From Bdellovibrionales bacterium (GTDB lineage Bacteria > Bdellovibrionota > Bdellovibrionia > Bdellovibrionales > Bdellovibrionaceae): a DNA stretch of 64,000 nucleotides. The translations under genes were made by a program, and so were the position numbers. Positions 25,966 to 32,540 of the stretch are shown here, piece after piece. The DNA is taken from contig SXSU01000063.1 in the NCBI GenBank assembly GCA_005793345.1, forward strand, positions 1 through 64,000, in the 5' to 3' direction. The notes beneath the pieces were generated by a model. It worked only from the letters and a program-made list of their open reading frames with translations, was not told the DNA's origin and searched no databases. How positions within the stretch are numbered: the first letter of the stretch is position 1; each line of letters starts with the position of its first letter.

Positions 25966-27435
25966 TTAAAAATGATATCTTCGTGCACGGCCTTGACCTC
26001 GTACTTTTATTTGCTTTTTATTGATACTTAAAGTCAGTAATTTAATAGCTTTGGTTTTTGATATTTGGAGTAATGAAACAACTTGAAGAGATGAAAAAGA
26101 TTTTCCTTTAAACTTCAATTTTAATTTATTTACAAAAACTTCAATATCATCAGATTTAAAATTTAAAGGCACTATAATTTTAAAATTATCTTTTGGGATC
26201 CAGAAAAAGTCATTTCCTACATGTGATAATTCAATAGGAATTTGAAAAATTTTAATTTGTTTTTTTAAAAACAAAAAATGATTAAGAACTCTCTTAGTAG
26301 AGTGAATGGGATCAAAAAACTGATCGCCGTAGAGGTGAGAGAAAATTTCACCTAAACTTTTTGGTTTGTAAAAATCTGTAAACAAGAAAAATAAAAACTT
26401 TTTTGCAAATCTATTTTTTTCAATTCTTCTAAGAAAATCATGTGCACTTAAAAGTTCAAAGACTTGAATTGATAAAATTGATTTTTCGTTAAAAATCTCA
26501 ATTGAATTCTTATTATCAATTTTCTTTTTCCATAATGTGATTATTTTATTTTTAAATGTCAGTAGAGGCGTGCCAAAATAAACTTTTTCTATTAAATATT
26601 TATTAGAACATGATATAGCTAAATACAGATCACAATCTCTAATGGTTTCCCAATGTCTCATTTCTTTTGCTTTTAATTTTATTTTTTGAACATTTTCAAC
26701 AGATATTAAATTTTGTGGGTTTAACATAAGTTGAGCTAAGGCTTCCCATTTTTCAGCAAATAATAAATATAATGAACCCTTGTCTGGAAATAAAGATTTT
26801 GCTATTTGTGAATTTTTCAATGCATTTGTAAAGTCATTATTTCTAAAGTTTAGTTGAGCTTTTAATTCAAACGCATTGCCGCGAAGCAAATTGTAAGAGT
26901 TATCAGAAGTGAGATTGAATACATTGTTTAAAATATTCTCGGCTTTTACTAATTGATTATCTGAAATATAACAGGCCGCTAAATTTACCAATCCTACAAT
27001 ATGTGAATATGAATTTTTGGGTTGCATAGTAATAAATTTTTTAATTAATGGTCCTGCAGATTTATGATCCCAGAGGTTTAAATATACGAATGCTAATTGT
27101 AAGTTTCGTTCTGGTAAGTTTATATTTTTAACTTTAAGTATTACTCCTTTAGCTTCTTTAACTAAACCTAAAAATGAAAGACCAGAGGCATAGGAGAGCA
27201 ATTCATTATCTGTTGCTGGCATATCTAGTACTTTTTCAGATCTAACTATAGGGTTTAAAATTTTTAAGTTAATTATCATTAAATTATTTCGTCGAGCTAT
27301 GGTCGCAAGAGGTTCTCTATATTTTCTTGGAATTTTAGAAAATTTAATTTTATTAAAAAAATCCTTGATCTCAGATGTTTTCCCAAGTTGAGTTAACTTT
27401 TCTAAGTGATCTATTTGGTCAATATTAATTAACAT
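25966..27435 (-). CDS. TPR protein with C-terminal winged-helix segments
   Basis: 489 residues without signal. Residues about 80-260 contain TPR-like helical pairs (LAFVYLNLWDHKSAGPLIKKF, VGLVNLAACYISDNQLVKAENIL). From about 350, KPKSLGEIFSHLYGDQFFDPIHSTKRVLNHFLFLKKQI resembles a transcriptional-activator winged helix, and the last 45 residues (SLQVVSLLQISKTKAIKLLTLSINKKQIKVRGQG) read as a second winged helix with a basic tail RGQGRARRYHF. A transcription factor is likely. It shares its layout with 7002-8165. The start overlaps the end of the GDPD gene by 11 bp. Confidence 0.6.
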   Translation of the reverse strand: MLINIDQIDHLEKLTQLGKTSEIKDFFNKIKFSKIPRKYREPLATIARRNNLMIINLKILNPIVRSEKVLDMPATDNELLSYASGLSFLGLVKEAKGVILKVKNINLPERNLQLAFVYLNLWDHKSAGPLIKKFITMQPKNSYSHIVGLVNLAACYISDNQLVKAENILNNVFNLTSDNSYNLLRGNAFELKAQLNFRNNDFTNALKNSQIAKSLFPDKGSLYLLFAEKWEALAQLMLNPQNLISVENVQKIKLKAKEMRHWETIRDCDLYLAISCSNKYLIEKVYFGTPLLTFKNKIITLWKKKIDNKNSIEIFNEKSILSIQVFELLSAHDFLRRIEKNRFAKKFLFFLFTDFYKPKSLGEIFSHLYGDQFFDPIHSTKRVLNHFLFLKKQIKIFQIPIELSHVGNDFFWIPKDNFKIIVPLNFKSDDIEVFVNKLKLKFKGKSFSSLQVVSLLQISKTKAIKLLTLSINKKQIKVRGQGRARRYHF

Positions 27436-28243
27436 TTACAGGCTCTAAGTTTTTAATAAGTGGATATGTATCTGTAATGATACTTACGACGCCTTTATTT
27501 TGTAATAATAAGGCTTGAGTTTCATCATTAACTGTCCAAACGGCGATTGGTATTTTTCTTTCATTTAATCTTCGGATTAAAAACGGTGTTAGCATTTTAT
27601 AATTAAGATTAACCATGTGTGGTTTGGCTAAAAAGCCCAACCACATTTGCCGCAAATAGATCTTATTTTTAGGATCCTTTTTTTCATTACTGACAAGCAA
27701 AGCTCTAGGAACATCTGGTAATATTTTTGAAAGTCTCATTAGGCAAATTGGATTAAAACTTGAAAATAATACTCGATGTTGTGATTGGGTATTAATAACA
27801 ATTTCACATACTGCTTTTTCTAATCCAATGTTTTTAATGCCAGAAGCTTTTAATTCGATATTGATTTTACTTGGGCATAAATTATCACGAAGAACTTGTT
27901 CAAGACTAGGGATATTTGCCTTTGATAAGAGTTCGTTTGCAGTGAGGCTATTAATTTTAAGTTTTATATTAGATTGATCTACTAAAAAAGATCCATCGTG
28001 ATGAACTACTGGTTGCTCATCTTGTGAAAGATGTACATCTAGCTCGATCATTTTCGCACCCCTAATTTTAGCTTCTCGAAAAGCTGAAATTGAGTTTTCT
28101 TTATGCCCCTCAATCCAATAGCCACGATGAACTTGATAAGGTTCAAGAATAATACTTTTTTCTGGCCAAGATTCTGTCCGCCAATTCCAGCATAACCGAA
28201 TAAAAGCATAACTTAAAATTACGATCAAATAACTAATTAACAT
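27425..28243 (-). CDS. Glycerophosphodiester phosphodiesterase family protein
   Basis: Hydrolyses glycerophosphodiesters to glycerol-3-phosphate and an alcohol. Landmarks are VHRGYWIEGHKENSISAF with the catalytic His, AKMIELDVHLSQDEQPVVHHD with metal-binding Glu and Asp and second His, and a C-terminal IPIAVWTVND, all typical of GDPD. The start is placed at ATG 28243, which has a good SD (GAGGGA) nine bases upstream; a longer frame from 28303 has none. The first 20 residues are a signal or membrane anchor. It overlaps the TPR-winged-helix gene downstream by 11 bp. Confidence 0.88.
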   Translation of the reverse strand: MLISYLIVILSYAFIRLCWNWRTESWPEKSIILEPYQVHRGYWIEGHKENSISAFREAKIRGAKMIELDVHLSQDEQPVVHHDGSFLVDQSNIKLKINSLTANELLSKANIPSLEQVLRDNLCPSKINIELKASGIKNIGLEKAVCEIVINTQSQHRVLFSSFNPICLMRLSKILPDVPRALLVSNEKKDPKNKIYLRQMWLGFLAKPHMVNLNYKMLTPFLIRRLNERKIPIAVWTVNDETQALLLQNKGVVSIITDTYPLIKNLEPVNVN

Positions 28244-28366
28244 TTTAAATATCCCTCTACAAACGTATAATAATGATACTACTGGAGCTAAAATAAAAGT
28301 CATCTTAATTTGATAATTTTAATTTTAAAACTTCCATCTCATTACTTAATAAAGTAAAATAAAATA

Positions 28367-28468
28367 AAATAATTAATAATGATTATTTCTGATCGCTACC
28401 GCGATTTAATCAATTATAATCATTATTAATTATTTTATTGTTTGATTGGGGCGATTTTTAATCACCCC
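28367..28468. repeat. Variant composite palindromic repeat between divergent genes
   Basis: AAATAATTAATAATGATTAT (28367-28386) is inverted exactly at 28416-28435 with a 29-nt centre that carries the GATCGCTACCGCGAT core. A second hairpin, GATTGGGGCGATT...AATCACCCC, lies at 28444-28468. It sits in the intergenic region between the leftward GDPD gene and the rightward protease gene, so it overlaps both promoters. It is the only copy with an AT-rich outer stem. Confidence 0.85.
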
Positions 28469-28496: not shown

Positions 28497-30236
28497 ATGC
28501 GGAAAATTAAAATTATATTTTTATTTATTATTTTATTGTTAATTCCCTATGTTTTTTTTGGTCAAGCTTGTTCGCAAAAGCAATTTCAAGTTGATCCGCA
28601 AAAGGTAAATGATTGCGGAGTTCAATGTAATGAAAATTTAAGTCTTAAATCTGATGATCCTTACTTAAAATACCAATGGCATTTATTTAATAATGGAGAT
28701 TTTGGCGGTGTTATAGGTGAAGATCTTCATTTACAATCAACATGGGGACAAGGTATTTTAGGAAATGAAATTACTGTTGCTGTTGTTGATGATGGAATTG
28801 ACTTGAATCATCCCGATTTATTAGAAAATAAAAGTGATTTGAGTTGGAATTTTGCAAATCCAACTCTGGGACAAGATGTATCTTTACCAACTGATCCTAA
28901 TAAAGAGGGACATGGGACCTGTGTGGCGGGGTTACTTGGAGCCCGTGGTAATAACGGCTTAGGAGTATCAGGAATTTCTCCACTTGTAAAAATAGCGGGA
29001 TATAATATTAGTGGACAAACAAGTGTATCTTATACTGCTGCTGCTACTGCTACATTTAATAATATTTCTCATATATCAAAAATTGACGTTTCAAATAATA
29101 GTTATGGACCTATTGATGGTTTAGGCGTTTATACAACTGTTGATCAATCTTGGATAGATGCGATTGAAACCGGACTCGAAGAAGGTCGTTCGGGGCTAGG
29201 AACAATTTATGTCTGGGCTGCTGGAAATGGATATTCAAATGATCGTTCCAACTATGATAGTATATCTAGTTTTTACGGAGTAATTCCAGTTTGTGCTGTT
29301 GGACATGACGGGAAAATTGCAAATTATTCTGAAGCTGGTTCAAATTTATGGGTCTGTGGATTTGGATCTAGCAACGTTCAAGTTGGGCTAACAACTACGG
29401 ATTTACTTTTATCAAAAGGATTTAATAAAGGTGGTAGTTCAGTAAATTTTAAAGATCTCAATTTTACAAATAATTTTAGTGGAACTTCGGCAGCGGCTCC
29501 AGTAGTTAGTGGTGTTGTTAGTTTAATTTTAAATTATGCAAATATTATTAAAAAAGAATTATCATGGAGAGATGTAAAACTAATATTGGCAAAAAGTGCC
29601 AGGAAAAGTAATGATACAGGTTGGTCGACGAATGGGGCTGGATATAATGTTCATGACAATTATGGTTTTGGAATAATTGATGTTGATAATTCAATTGAGA
29701 CTGTAAAAAATTGGAGCTCAATTAAAAATGAACCTTTTTTGAATAGTGAATTTCCTAAGTTTGATTATTTCTTTGTGGGTCAAAAAATACCAATTGCATT
29801 AAATTTGCAAAATGCCTTGGTTTCTGAATTTCAAATATCTAATGCAAATGAATTAAAAGTGCAAAAAATTGAATATCTTGATGTAAAAATTAAATTAGAT
29901 CATTACAATTGGGGCGATTTAAAACTCGTATTAGAACATGAAGGCATTACTAATGATGGTTCTGTATTTAACACAAAGTCCATATTAATTCAAACTCATA
30001 GTTGCAAATTTAAAGACAGTGCTAGCACAGATTTAAAAATTAAAAATTGTTCAGAACTAGATAATGGTCAAGTTGGAGATTCAAATTATGAATTTATATT
30101 TGGAACATCAAAACATTTAGGTGAGTCACCGAATGGAACTTGGAGAATTCGTGTTTATGACACAAATTCAACAAATTCTGATATTTCTAAGCAGGGCCAA
30201 TTAAATGGATGGAGATTGAAATTTTATGGTTCATAA
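28497..30236 (+). CDS. Kexin/furin-like subtilase (S8) with C-terminal P domain, no own propeptide
   Basis: 579 residues. Hydrophobic N-terminus with Cys25 (FGQAC), a possible lipobox. The protease domain starts almost at once (DPYLKYQWHLFNNG at 54-67): Asp98 (VVDDG), His139 (GHGT), Asn244 (AAGNGYSN) and Ser331 (SGTSAAAP) complete the S8 triad and oxyanion hole. Residues about 410-579 form a P (Homo B) domain ending LNGWRLKFYG. The usual I9-like prodomain before the catalytic domain is missing; the next gene, which overlaps by 11 bp, encodes a propeptide-like protein. Likely exported and anchored to a membrane. Confidence 0.9.
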   Translation: MRKIKIIFLFIILLLIPYVFFGQACSQKQFQVDPQKVNDCGVQCNENLSLKSDDPYLKYQWHLFNNGDFGGVIGEDLHLQSTWGQGILGNEITVAVVDDGIDLNHPDLLENKSDLSWNFANPTLGQDVSLPTDPNKEGHGTCVAGLLGARGNNGLGVSGISPLVKIAGYNISGQTSVSYTAAATATFNNISHISKIDVSNNSYGPIDGLGVYTTVDQSWIDAIETGLEEGRSGLGTIYVWAAGNGYSNDRSNYDSISSFYGVIPVCAVGHDGKIANYSEAGSNLWVCGFGSSNVQVGLTTTDLLLSKGFNKGGSSVNFKDLNFTNNFSGTSAAAPVVSGVVSLILNYANIIKKELSWRDVKLILAKSARKSNDTGWSTNGAGYNVHDNYGFGIIDVDNSIETVKNWSSIKNEPFLNSEFPKFDYFFVGQKIPIALNLQNALVSEFQISNANELKVQKIEYLDVKIKLDHYNWGDLKLVLEHEGITNDGSVFNTKSILIQTHSCKFKDSASTDLKIKNCSELDNGQVGDSNYEFIFGTSKHLGESPNGTWRIRVYDTNSTNSDISKQGQLNGWRLKFYGS

Positions 30237-30690
30237 ATTATTTATATACTTTTTTACAGGCTTAATACTCTTTCACAACTTGGCATGGAGTAGTGATTCG
30301 TATTATTGGTGGGATGGCAAAAAGAAACGGGAAATTCATTTAAAAGAAGAAAAAAATTCTAATCAATTGATTTTAAAAAAAATAGGAAATCGTAAAAAAA
30401 TAAATTCTGATCAAAATTTAGAATCCCCAATATTAGTGGATGGTAGTGGTGAGAAAAAACTTGCAGGTGGTATTTTATGTTATTTTAAAACAAAACATAA
30501 AATTGAAGAATTTGAATCCTGGTCCAATGAGAATTCAGTAGTGTTAAAACAGTTGGTGAGTTCCAAAACAATTTTAATAGAGGCACCAAAAAATTTAACA
30601 ACCCTTGAATTAGCAAATAAACTCTCTGAAAATAAAGATGTTAGATATTGCCAACCCAATTGGGAACACAGTTATAACTCTCGTCATTAA
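30226..30690 (+). CDS. Separate propeptide/inhibitor-like protein for the subtilase
   Basis: 154 residues with a signal peptide (ending LAWSS). The rest resembles the prodomain region of subtilases: an initial YYWWDGKKKREIHLKEE strand pair, then ILCYFKTKHKIEEFESW, ILIEAPKNLTTLELANKLSENKDVRYCQPNWEHS. The closing phrase matches the end of many subtilase propeptides (...DVxYaxPN), which normally leads straight into the mature enzyme. Here it ends with a stop codon. Overlap with the protease gene (11 bp) implies coupled synthesis. An intramolecular chaperone or inhibitor acting in trans is inferred. Confidence 0.7.
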   Translation: MVHKLFIYFFTGLILFHNLAWSSDSYYWWDGKKKREIHLKEEKNSNQLILKKIGNRKKINSDQNLESPILVDGSGEKKLAGGILCYFKTKHKIEEFESWSNENSVVLKQLVSSKTILIEAPKNLTTLELANKLSENKDVRYCQPNWEHSYNSRH

Positions 30691-30725: not shown

Positions 30726-32540
30726 CTATTCACATGGAGGTATGGGTTTATTTTTAGATCTAAGCTGTTGTGCAACAGCTTCTAAATTTTTACGACCTTC
30801 ATGAAAACTTGGATCAAATTTTATTGATTTACAATAATTATCAAAGGCTCCTTCTAAATTTCCATTTTGAATATTTACGAAGCCATAAACCGCATTAAAA
30901 ACAGAAAGGTGAGGGCCAGAGGTTTTCATTTGCGGAATACGTGGTAGAGTTTCATTATATAACCGGGTGATTGTATTAAAATCTCCTTTGAATCCATGTA
31001 TTAGCATTTCACCAGAAATAGGTCCTAATTCATCGGGTCTAATTTCATGAGCTTTTCTAAAGTGAAAAAGTGCCTTGTCTAAATTGTTATGTTGTCGTTC
31101 GATATTTGCAAAGTTAAGGTGAGCACTATAACTTTTAGGGTTAAATTGTATCATGCTTCCAAAAAAAGACTCATTATTTTTCCAGTCTTGAGTACGAACA
31201 AAATTAAAATAACCAAAGTAGGTAATGATAATTATAAAAATAAAGACCCAATATTTTTGCGACAATTTAAATGAACTTAAGAGTAATGCAATTCCAATAA
31301 GGGGAGCATAAAAATAACGATCAGCAGTTGTTGATATATTTTGATAAGCAAAGCCAAAAATTCCAGATGTTGGAAGGTAAAATAAAATAATAACACCAAA
31401 TAGTATGAGAAGTTGATTTCTATTTGCAGTTTTATTTTTACTTCGTAAATACAAAATTAATCCAATTGTTAAGATTAAAAATGTTGATGCGATAATCAAA
31501 GGAGTATAGTAAAGCTTTTCTTCTAATACAATCTTAGGAATTCGTCCATATTCTGCTGATAAAGGGAATGGCTTTATAAATTTTAAAACATAAAATCCAA
31601 GAGCATCAAGGGCAACAATTGGACGTTCATACCATTCTACAACAGAATCTTGTCGAATAAAGGTTTCTTGAATTTTTGAACTATTATAAATTGCAATTAA
31701 ACTTGTAAAAATACAAATGAAAGGTAACGCGAGGTTCTCTCGCGAGTTCTTTTTCATTATTTTTTTATTTTGATTTTTATGACTTTTTAGTTGTTTTTTT
31801 GAAAGGGGTTTACCATTTTTAGTTTCTAAATTATCTTCCGAACCCTTGTCTTCTGTTTTAATATTTAATTTAGTATTAAAAAGTTTAAATTTATTTTCGA
31901 ACCACTCAATTAATTCATCACCATAATTTATTAAAATAAATACTACAGGTATAATACTAACTGTTGGCTTACAAAGTAATGCGATATTAAATAAAATAAA
32001 TGCTAACCAAGATTTTCCAGTAACAGCTTTGCCTGCTCTAATCCAATACAATAATGCTGTAAGAGCAAAAGCATAACCTAAGGTATCTCTAAGGCCAGAG
32101 GTCCAAACTACTGTTTCAACTTGAAGCGGGTGAATTAGAAATAAAAGTGTACCAAAGATTGCTGATTTTTTATTTTCTGGATAAAGAGCTGTTGCAACTT
32201 TGTATACTAAAATACAATTTATAAAATGAACTGCAACATTAAGTAAATGAAACCATGATGGTTGATTGGGGACTAATTTCCATAAAAATGTCCAAATTGT
32301 ATATGGAATTGGAATATAAAGCCCATAATAACTATTTTCCCAAAAGTAAGTCCAATTAAAATTTTGTAGAAAATAATTGTCAAAAATATTTTCCCGATCG
32401 TCCCACCATAAAAACTCAAAATTAAAACTTTGTAAGTAAGTTATAGCAATAAGTGCAAAAAAAAGAGTATAGGGATGAATAATTCTTGAAATATATTTTG
32501 ATTTTAAAAATTCATTCACCTTTAAAAATCTCCTGTCCAA
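30726..32540 (-). CDS. TMTC-like GT-C membrane glycosyltransferase with C-terminal TPRs
   Basis: 604 residues. About ten hydrophobic helices between residues 20 and 440; the first external loop has WWDDRENIFDN, the acidic pair typical of dolichol/polyprenol-phosphate-dependent GT-C enzymes. Residues 450-600 are TPR (SYSAHLNFANIERQHNNLDKALFHFRKAHEIRPDE). Eukaryotic TMTC proteins with this plan are O-mannosyltransferases; a protein O-glycosylation role is inferred, not shown. A Lys-rich insert (residues 225-265) lies in a loop. The start overlaps the end of the TPR-barrel gene by 19 bp. Confidence 0.78.
   Translation of the reverse strand: MDRRFLKVNEFLKSKYISRIIHPYTLFFALIAITYLQSFNFEFLWWDDRENIFDNYFLQNFNWTYFWENSYYGLYIPIPYTIWTFLWKLVPNQPSWFHLLNVAVHFINCILVYKVATALYPENKKSAIFGTLLFLIHPLQVETVVWTSGLRDTLGYAFALTALLYWIRAGKAVTGKSWLAFILFNIALLCKPTVSIIPVVFILINYGDELIEWFENKFKLFNTKLNIKTEDKGSEDNLETKNGKPLSKKQLKSHKNQNKKIMKKNSRENLALPFICIFTSLIAIYNSSKIQETFIRQDSVVEWYERPIVALDALGFYVLKFIKPFPLSAEYGRIPKIVLEEKLYYTPLIIASTFLILTIGLILYLRSKNKTANRNQLLILFGVIILFYLPTSGIFGFAYQNISTTADRYFYAPLIGIALLLSSFKLSQKYWVFIFIIIITYFGYFNFVRTQDWKNNESFFGSMIQFNPKSYSAHLNFANIERQHNNLDKALFHFRKAHEIRPDELGPISGEMLIHGFKGDFNTITRLYNETLPRIPQMKTSGPHLSVFNAVYGFVNIQNGNLEGAFDNYCKSIKFDPSFHEGRKNLEAVAQQLRSKNKPIPPCE

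Follow-up and report, generated by a model that had tools for sequence, protein, structure and literature searches.

The closest described system to the locus considered here is the protease ASP of Aeromonas sobria with its external chaperone ORF2, in which the gene for a propeptide-less kexin-like enzyme (S8 plus P domain) is followed on its 3' side by the chaperone gene (PMC5638518; PDB 3wqb). Nascent ASP requires ORF2 for maturation, the C-terminus of ORF2 sits at the catalytic center, and ORF2 inhibits ASP with an IC50 of 84 nM; homologous operons were named only for Vibrio, Shewanella, Chromobacterium, and Pseudoalteromonas (PMC5638518). A 2022 survey of subtilases lists ASP as the sole exception to folding by an N-terminal propeptide (PMC9549277). 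As references for this system we used PDB entries 3hjr, 3wqb, and 2mk4 and the Pfam family PF18492 (ORF_2_N), named after the Aeromonas ORF2. Two other types of system are related in their logic. The lipase-specific foldases (Lif) of Pseudomonas and Burkholderia are steric folding chaperones encoded by their own gene just downstream of the secreted enzyme, and the I9-type subtilase inhibitors POIA1 and yeast IB2/Pbi2 are free-standing prodomain-like proteins.

The window, that is, the whole analyzed stretch of 64,000 nucleotides from a Bdellovibrionales bacterium, contains a pair of overlapping genes that resembles the ASP/ORF2 pair. The ORF check confirmed the two reading frames, their coordinates, and the 11-bp overlap given in a preliminary description of this DNA:

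28497-30236, + strand: kexin/furin-like subtilase gene, 579 aa (ORF, PF00082, PF01483, and PDB matches)
30226-30690, + strand: small-protein gene, 154 aa, proposed separately encoded prodomain (PF22148, leave-one-out profile, fold)
30226-30236, + strand: 11-bp overlap of the two ORFs, which are in different frames (ORF coordinates)
30211-30214, + strand: GGAG, candidate ribosome-binding site for the 154-aa ORF (sequence, inference)

The GGAG lies 11 nt 5' of the ATG of the 154-aa ORF, within the end of the protease gene. The pair is isolated, the gene on its left (27425-28303) being divergent and that on its right (30726-32540) convergent.

The features of the protease are as follows:

28497-28571, + strand: signal sequence with Cys25 and the atypical lipobox GQAC (sequence)
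28761-29669, + strand: peptidase S8 domain (Pfam match and alignment of relatives)
28788, 28911, 29226, and 29487, + strand: catalytic D98, H139, N244, and S331, respectively (alignment of relatives)
30051-30224, + strand: P (homo B) domain (PF01483, residues 519-576)

The protease matches the Pfam profile Peptidase_S8 (PF00082) over residues 89-391 (E 4e-38) and, at its C-terminus, that of the P domain (E 5e-7). In the alignment D98 is the conserved catalytic aspartate, and H139, N244, and S331 are invariant across all complete relatives. The closest solved structures found in the PDB search are furin (E 3.7e-36) and ASP (3hjr, E 1.5e-32), as well as Kex2, and a scan of genome contigs returned a distant Synechococcus protease as its sole match. 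Signal and linker take up the first 53 of the 88 residues that precede the S8 domain, and DPYLKYQWHL, the motif that starts mature kexins, begins at residue 54. The Pfam profile search found no prodomain match N-terminal of the S8 domain, and only about 29 residues separate Cys25 from the kexin motif. Thus, the preliminary description was right about the missing prodomain, but the catalytic domain does not start directly after the signal, a short linker intervening. In most of the other S8 genes of this genome, 104-243 residues precede the domain, and many show a cis prodomain. The window protease is probably a lipoprotein, judging from its N-terminus; a cysteine follows the hydrophobic stretch in 84 of 92 relatives by a lenient pattern, which misses the window protease itself.

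The 154-aa ORF begins with a hydrophobic signal, followed by a SDSYYWWDGKKKREIHLKEE module and by a core with NKDVRYCQPNWEHSYNSRH at its end; the parts are as follows:

30226-30288, + strand: signal peptide of the small protein (hydrophobic N-terminus)
30289-30363, + strand: N-terminal module YYWWDGKKKREIHLKEE, a conserved element of the window-type subfamily (domain 1 of the leave-one-out profile, i-E 5e-6; alignment)
30460-30663, + strand: predicted prodomain core, beta-alpha-beta-beta-alpha-beta (core model, Foldseek)
30664-30687, + strand: putative C-terminal tail after the ...PNW junction (position, inference)

A signal-like N-terminus is present in 13/13 members of the window-type subfamily. 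The final residue of the window protein is histidine; lysine or arginine is final in 22 of 36 downstream-type relatives.

The sole Pfam match of the small protein is PF22148 (Fervidolysin_NPro-like) at residues 105-145 (E 6e-4), at 20.6 bits, 0.4 bits short of the cut-off of 21; the same family is matched by four of the 13 window-type members. Inhibitor_I9 (PF05922) gives no match to the protein at E up to 10, and PF18492 matches neither the window protein nor any of the 13 members. A leave-one-out profile of the 12 homologous downstream ORFs retrieves the 154-aa ORF at E 3.2e-23 as the sole match among 268 sequences. This profile was built without the window, and its match shows that the ORF is not a chance one. 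When all 13 small proteins are combined into a profile and searched against 369 genomes of the phylum, the strong matches are those loci only, all of which adjoin the same type of protease, and the next matches, at E of about 1e-6 and weaker, are N-terminal prodomains of ordinary fused subtilases (seven were read out). In profile-profile comparisons, the window type scores 70% (E 4e-5) against cis prodomains, 68-76% against two ORF2-type sets, and only 0.5-10% against two smaller downstream sets, with decoys below 0.5%; the mutual probability among the ORF2-type sets is 97-99.9%. Searching the PDB by sequence gave no prodomain match, whether with the small protein, with single relatives, or with family profiles, so the relatedness is drawn from Pfam, profile-profile, and fold comparison. 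Assignment of the window protein to the PF18492/ORF2 type was also considered: a first profile grouped both, whereas the first-round profile without the window gave only E 0.055. Because the link is weak once the window is left out of the profile, we did not file the protein in PF18492, a family matched by 12 of 16 first-round partners.

The core-only single-sequence model (the C-terminal 85 residues, pLDDT 74) shows the beta-alpha-beta-beta-alpha-beta topology of subtilase prodomains. The first-ranked Foldseek match of this model is the furin-bound PC1/3 prodomain (9fid, prob 1.00; TM by target 0.74). The list also contains ORF2 of the ASP-ORF2 complex (3wqb_B, prob 0.98), fervidolysin (1r6v), the prodomain of an Aspergillus alkaline protease, and other small ferredoxin-like folds. 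The E-values are 0.02 or worse, as is to be expected with a short and common fold; the modeled core thus supports a prodomain fold, short of proof. The full-length single-sequence AlphaFold model without the signal is poor (pLDDT 51), and the Foldseek result obtained from it is only suggestive. Taken together, homology, the modeled fold, and the conserved pairing support the identification of the C-terminal half of the small protein as a subtilase prodomain. The suggestion that the small ORF carries its own signal and a prodomain-like sequence, and that the protease receives its prodomain from a separate, overlapping gene, is supported by the hydrophobic N-terminus, the PF22148 and leave-one-out matches, the modeled fold, and the phylum-wide pairing described below.

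The window pair shares with ASP/ORF2 a kexin-like S8+P protease without a propeptide and a prodomain-like gene directly downstream. The chaperones also have a similar predicted plan, a prodomain-like body (in the window, the core model) with an N-terminal extension and a C-terminal tail. The differences are that the window chaperone is not recognized by PF18492, that the window protease falls outside the ASP/ORF2-type clade in a quick tree, and that in most of the taxonomic family of the window the chaperone gene comes first and encodes a membrane-anchor-like N-terminus. The cis prodomains of subtilases (PF22148, furin/PC1) share the predicted fold and the sequence pattern of the window protein, but are fused N-terminally to their enzymes, whereas the window prodomain has a gene of its own. 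Like Lif, the window chaperone gene is 3' of a secreted enzyme, but the fold and the enzyme class are unrelated. POIA1 and IB2/Pbi2 have no operon pairing with a prodomain-less enzyme, whereas proteins of the window type apparently undergo export and are nearly always encoded next to such an enzyme. The arrangement was initially described as unusual. Since the ASP/ORF2 pair has already been characterized, it has a precise precedent; at the same time, the 2022 survey still allowed for that one case only (PMC9549277).

We consider it highly probable that the two genes belong together as a unit, one encoding a secreted kexin-like protease that is probably anchored by a lipid and the other its detached prodomain, which would serve in trans as a chaperone and transient inhibitor. 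By analogy with ASP/ORF2, the 154-aa protein would fold the protease, block it, and then be degraded. The protease and the small protein would be exported separately, the former becoming lipidated. In the periplasm, the small protein would bind the nascent protease and serve as a folding template, and its C-terminal tail, which is predicted to reach into the active-site cleft as that of ORF2 does, would fill the active site and inhibit the enzyme for a time. Finally, the protease would degrade the small protein.

The protease search covered 369 genomes of the phylum Bdellovibrionota and revealed two classes. The window-type class comprises 12 other loci in 11 genomes (E 1e-64 to 1e-108), and an ORF of 153-230 aa lies directly downstream of the protease in 12/12 of them. 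Proteases of the Bdellovibrio type, together with others, make up the second class. They, too, have no cis prodomain, and their partner of 130-290 aa is usually upstream; one member of this class, G006, matches ASP at E 1.4e-79. Partners were first picked by position and length. Among the first 97 proteases, 92 have an adjacent partner, 56 upstream and 36 downstream; many overlaps are 14, 11, or 4 bp, and contig ends truncate a few of the partners or proteases. The five proteases without a counted partner are G179a (partner frame-broken), G162 (none), and G216, G235, and G237 (cut by contig ends before a partner could be seen). Thirteen further S8+P proteases were reached via the P domain, and 12 of them have a partner, including a tail-to-tail one on the other strand (G311) and one seen as a fragment only (G182), while G328 has none. 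An adjacent separate prodomain gene is thus found for 104 of the 110 Bdellovibrionota S8+P proteases examined, and none of the 110 shows a fused prodomain. A search for fused-prodomain S8+P proteases among the P-domain matches of the phylum likewise gave none; the other P-domain proteins sampled there are not S8, as judged by eye. The detached prodomain is the rule for kexin-like S8+P proteases across the phylum, in either gene order.

Several individual loci differ from the window pair in layout. At Bdellovibrio-type loci such as L036, L034, and L030, the same protease family is preceded by the prodomain gene, mostly with a 14-bp overlap, and the partner has a membrane-anchor-like N-terminus, in contrast to the signal-peptide-like start of the window type. 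A third arrangement is observed at L197 (G311:C29), where the prodomain and protease genes are convergent, on opposite strands, and about 20 bp apart. At L168 (G179:C1), the upstream partner ORF appears to be frame-broken in the assembly. The kexin-like S8+P proteases at L176 (G162) and L204 (G328) show neither a cis prodomain nor an adjacent partner within the DNA fetched, so some members of the family may fold alone or use a remote partner.

These two proteases are one of the points in favor of a different role for the small protein, namely that it is an inhibitor only, providing self-protection like POIA1 or the Pbi2-type I9 proteins, while the protease folds alone. The fold class, which is shared with standalone I9-type inhibitors, also agrees with this explanation. 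We nevertheless regard it as unlikely: the protease has no other prodomain, nearly all S8+P relatives keep the pair adjacent, and the homologous arrangement of ASP is required for maturation (PMC5638518). Alternatively, the small ORF might be what is left of a fused gene that broke and is now decaying, and the window copy is indeed among the shorter (154 aa) and less typical members, with KLAGG where most relatives have LPGG and a histidine at the C-terminus. However, the signal, the N-terminal module, and the core are conserved over 13 loci, and the gene order is opposite to that expected from simple fission of a fused gene, which makes decay very improbable.

Programmed frameshifting within the overlap, joining both ORFs into one polypeptide, can be practically dismissed. 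Although the overlap is short, its length across relatives varies between -28 and +10 and the two frames stand in no fixed relation, which makes a fixed frameshift fusion unlikely; moreover, each protein has its own signal sequence, the prodomain would land at the C-terminus, and the gene order is reversed in many relatives. A trans-acting chaperone and transient inhibitor encoded next to its protease is thus the explanation we prefer.

The window pair was placed among its relatives by a quick tree with long branches, which comprises 87 proteases and has furin as its root. Within these limits, the window-type clade (12 rows; SH-aLRT 86) has as its sister group ASP and the ORF2-type rows (support 94), and the clade with ASP and all ORF2-type pairs leaves the window type out. 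The window subfamily appears as a second, divergent branch, outside the ASP clade on this tree and missed by PF18492. On the same quick tree, gene order has changed at least four times, with three changes forced by well supported branches. One scenario, which we put forward tentatively and with less than even confidence, is that the detached prodomain is the default state of Bdellovibrionota kexin-like proteases and arose at least twice, in the window type and in the ORF2 type, after which the order and orientation of the genes were free to swap as long as they stayed adjacent. In this scenario, since order and orientation swap while adjacency is kept, selection would act on co-production in trans and not on the order of translation.

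Our literature search returned no paper on such pairs in Bdellovibrionota, although papers beyond the literature searched may exist. Relative to that literature, the breadth of the arrangement in this phylum, the flips of gene order, and the second chaperone subfamily are new. What had been listed as an exception holds generally for one family of proteases in the phylum to which the predator Bdellovibrio belongs. About 100 natural pairs of an enzyme and its trans prodomain, which differ in gene order and fall into two chaperone families, can be used to study how prodomains and enzymes recognize each other, whether gene order affects folding, and why these bacteria keep the parts separate. They also show that annotation can miss the partner gene: the window chaperone has no Pfam match above the cut-off, and PF18492 matches 0/13 of the window type.

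Two minor observations concern the genome of the window. In the S8 proteases at L015 and L017 (G000:C87 and C39), the S8 domain starts after only about 65 residues, and these two may likewise have no cis prodomain. Between the divergent genes, 5' of the protease, lies an AT-rich inverted repeat of 31 nt (28363-28393 and 28409-28439; 90% complementary, 15-nt spacer), a possible operator or structured leader.
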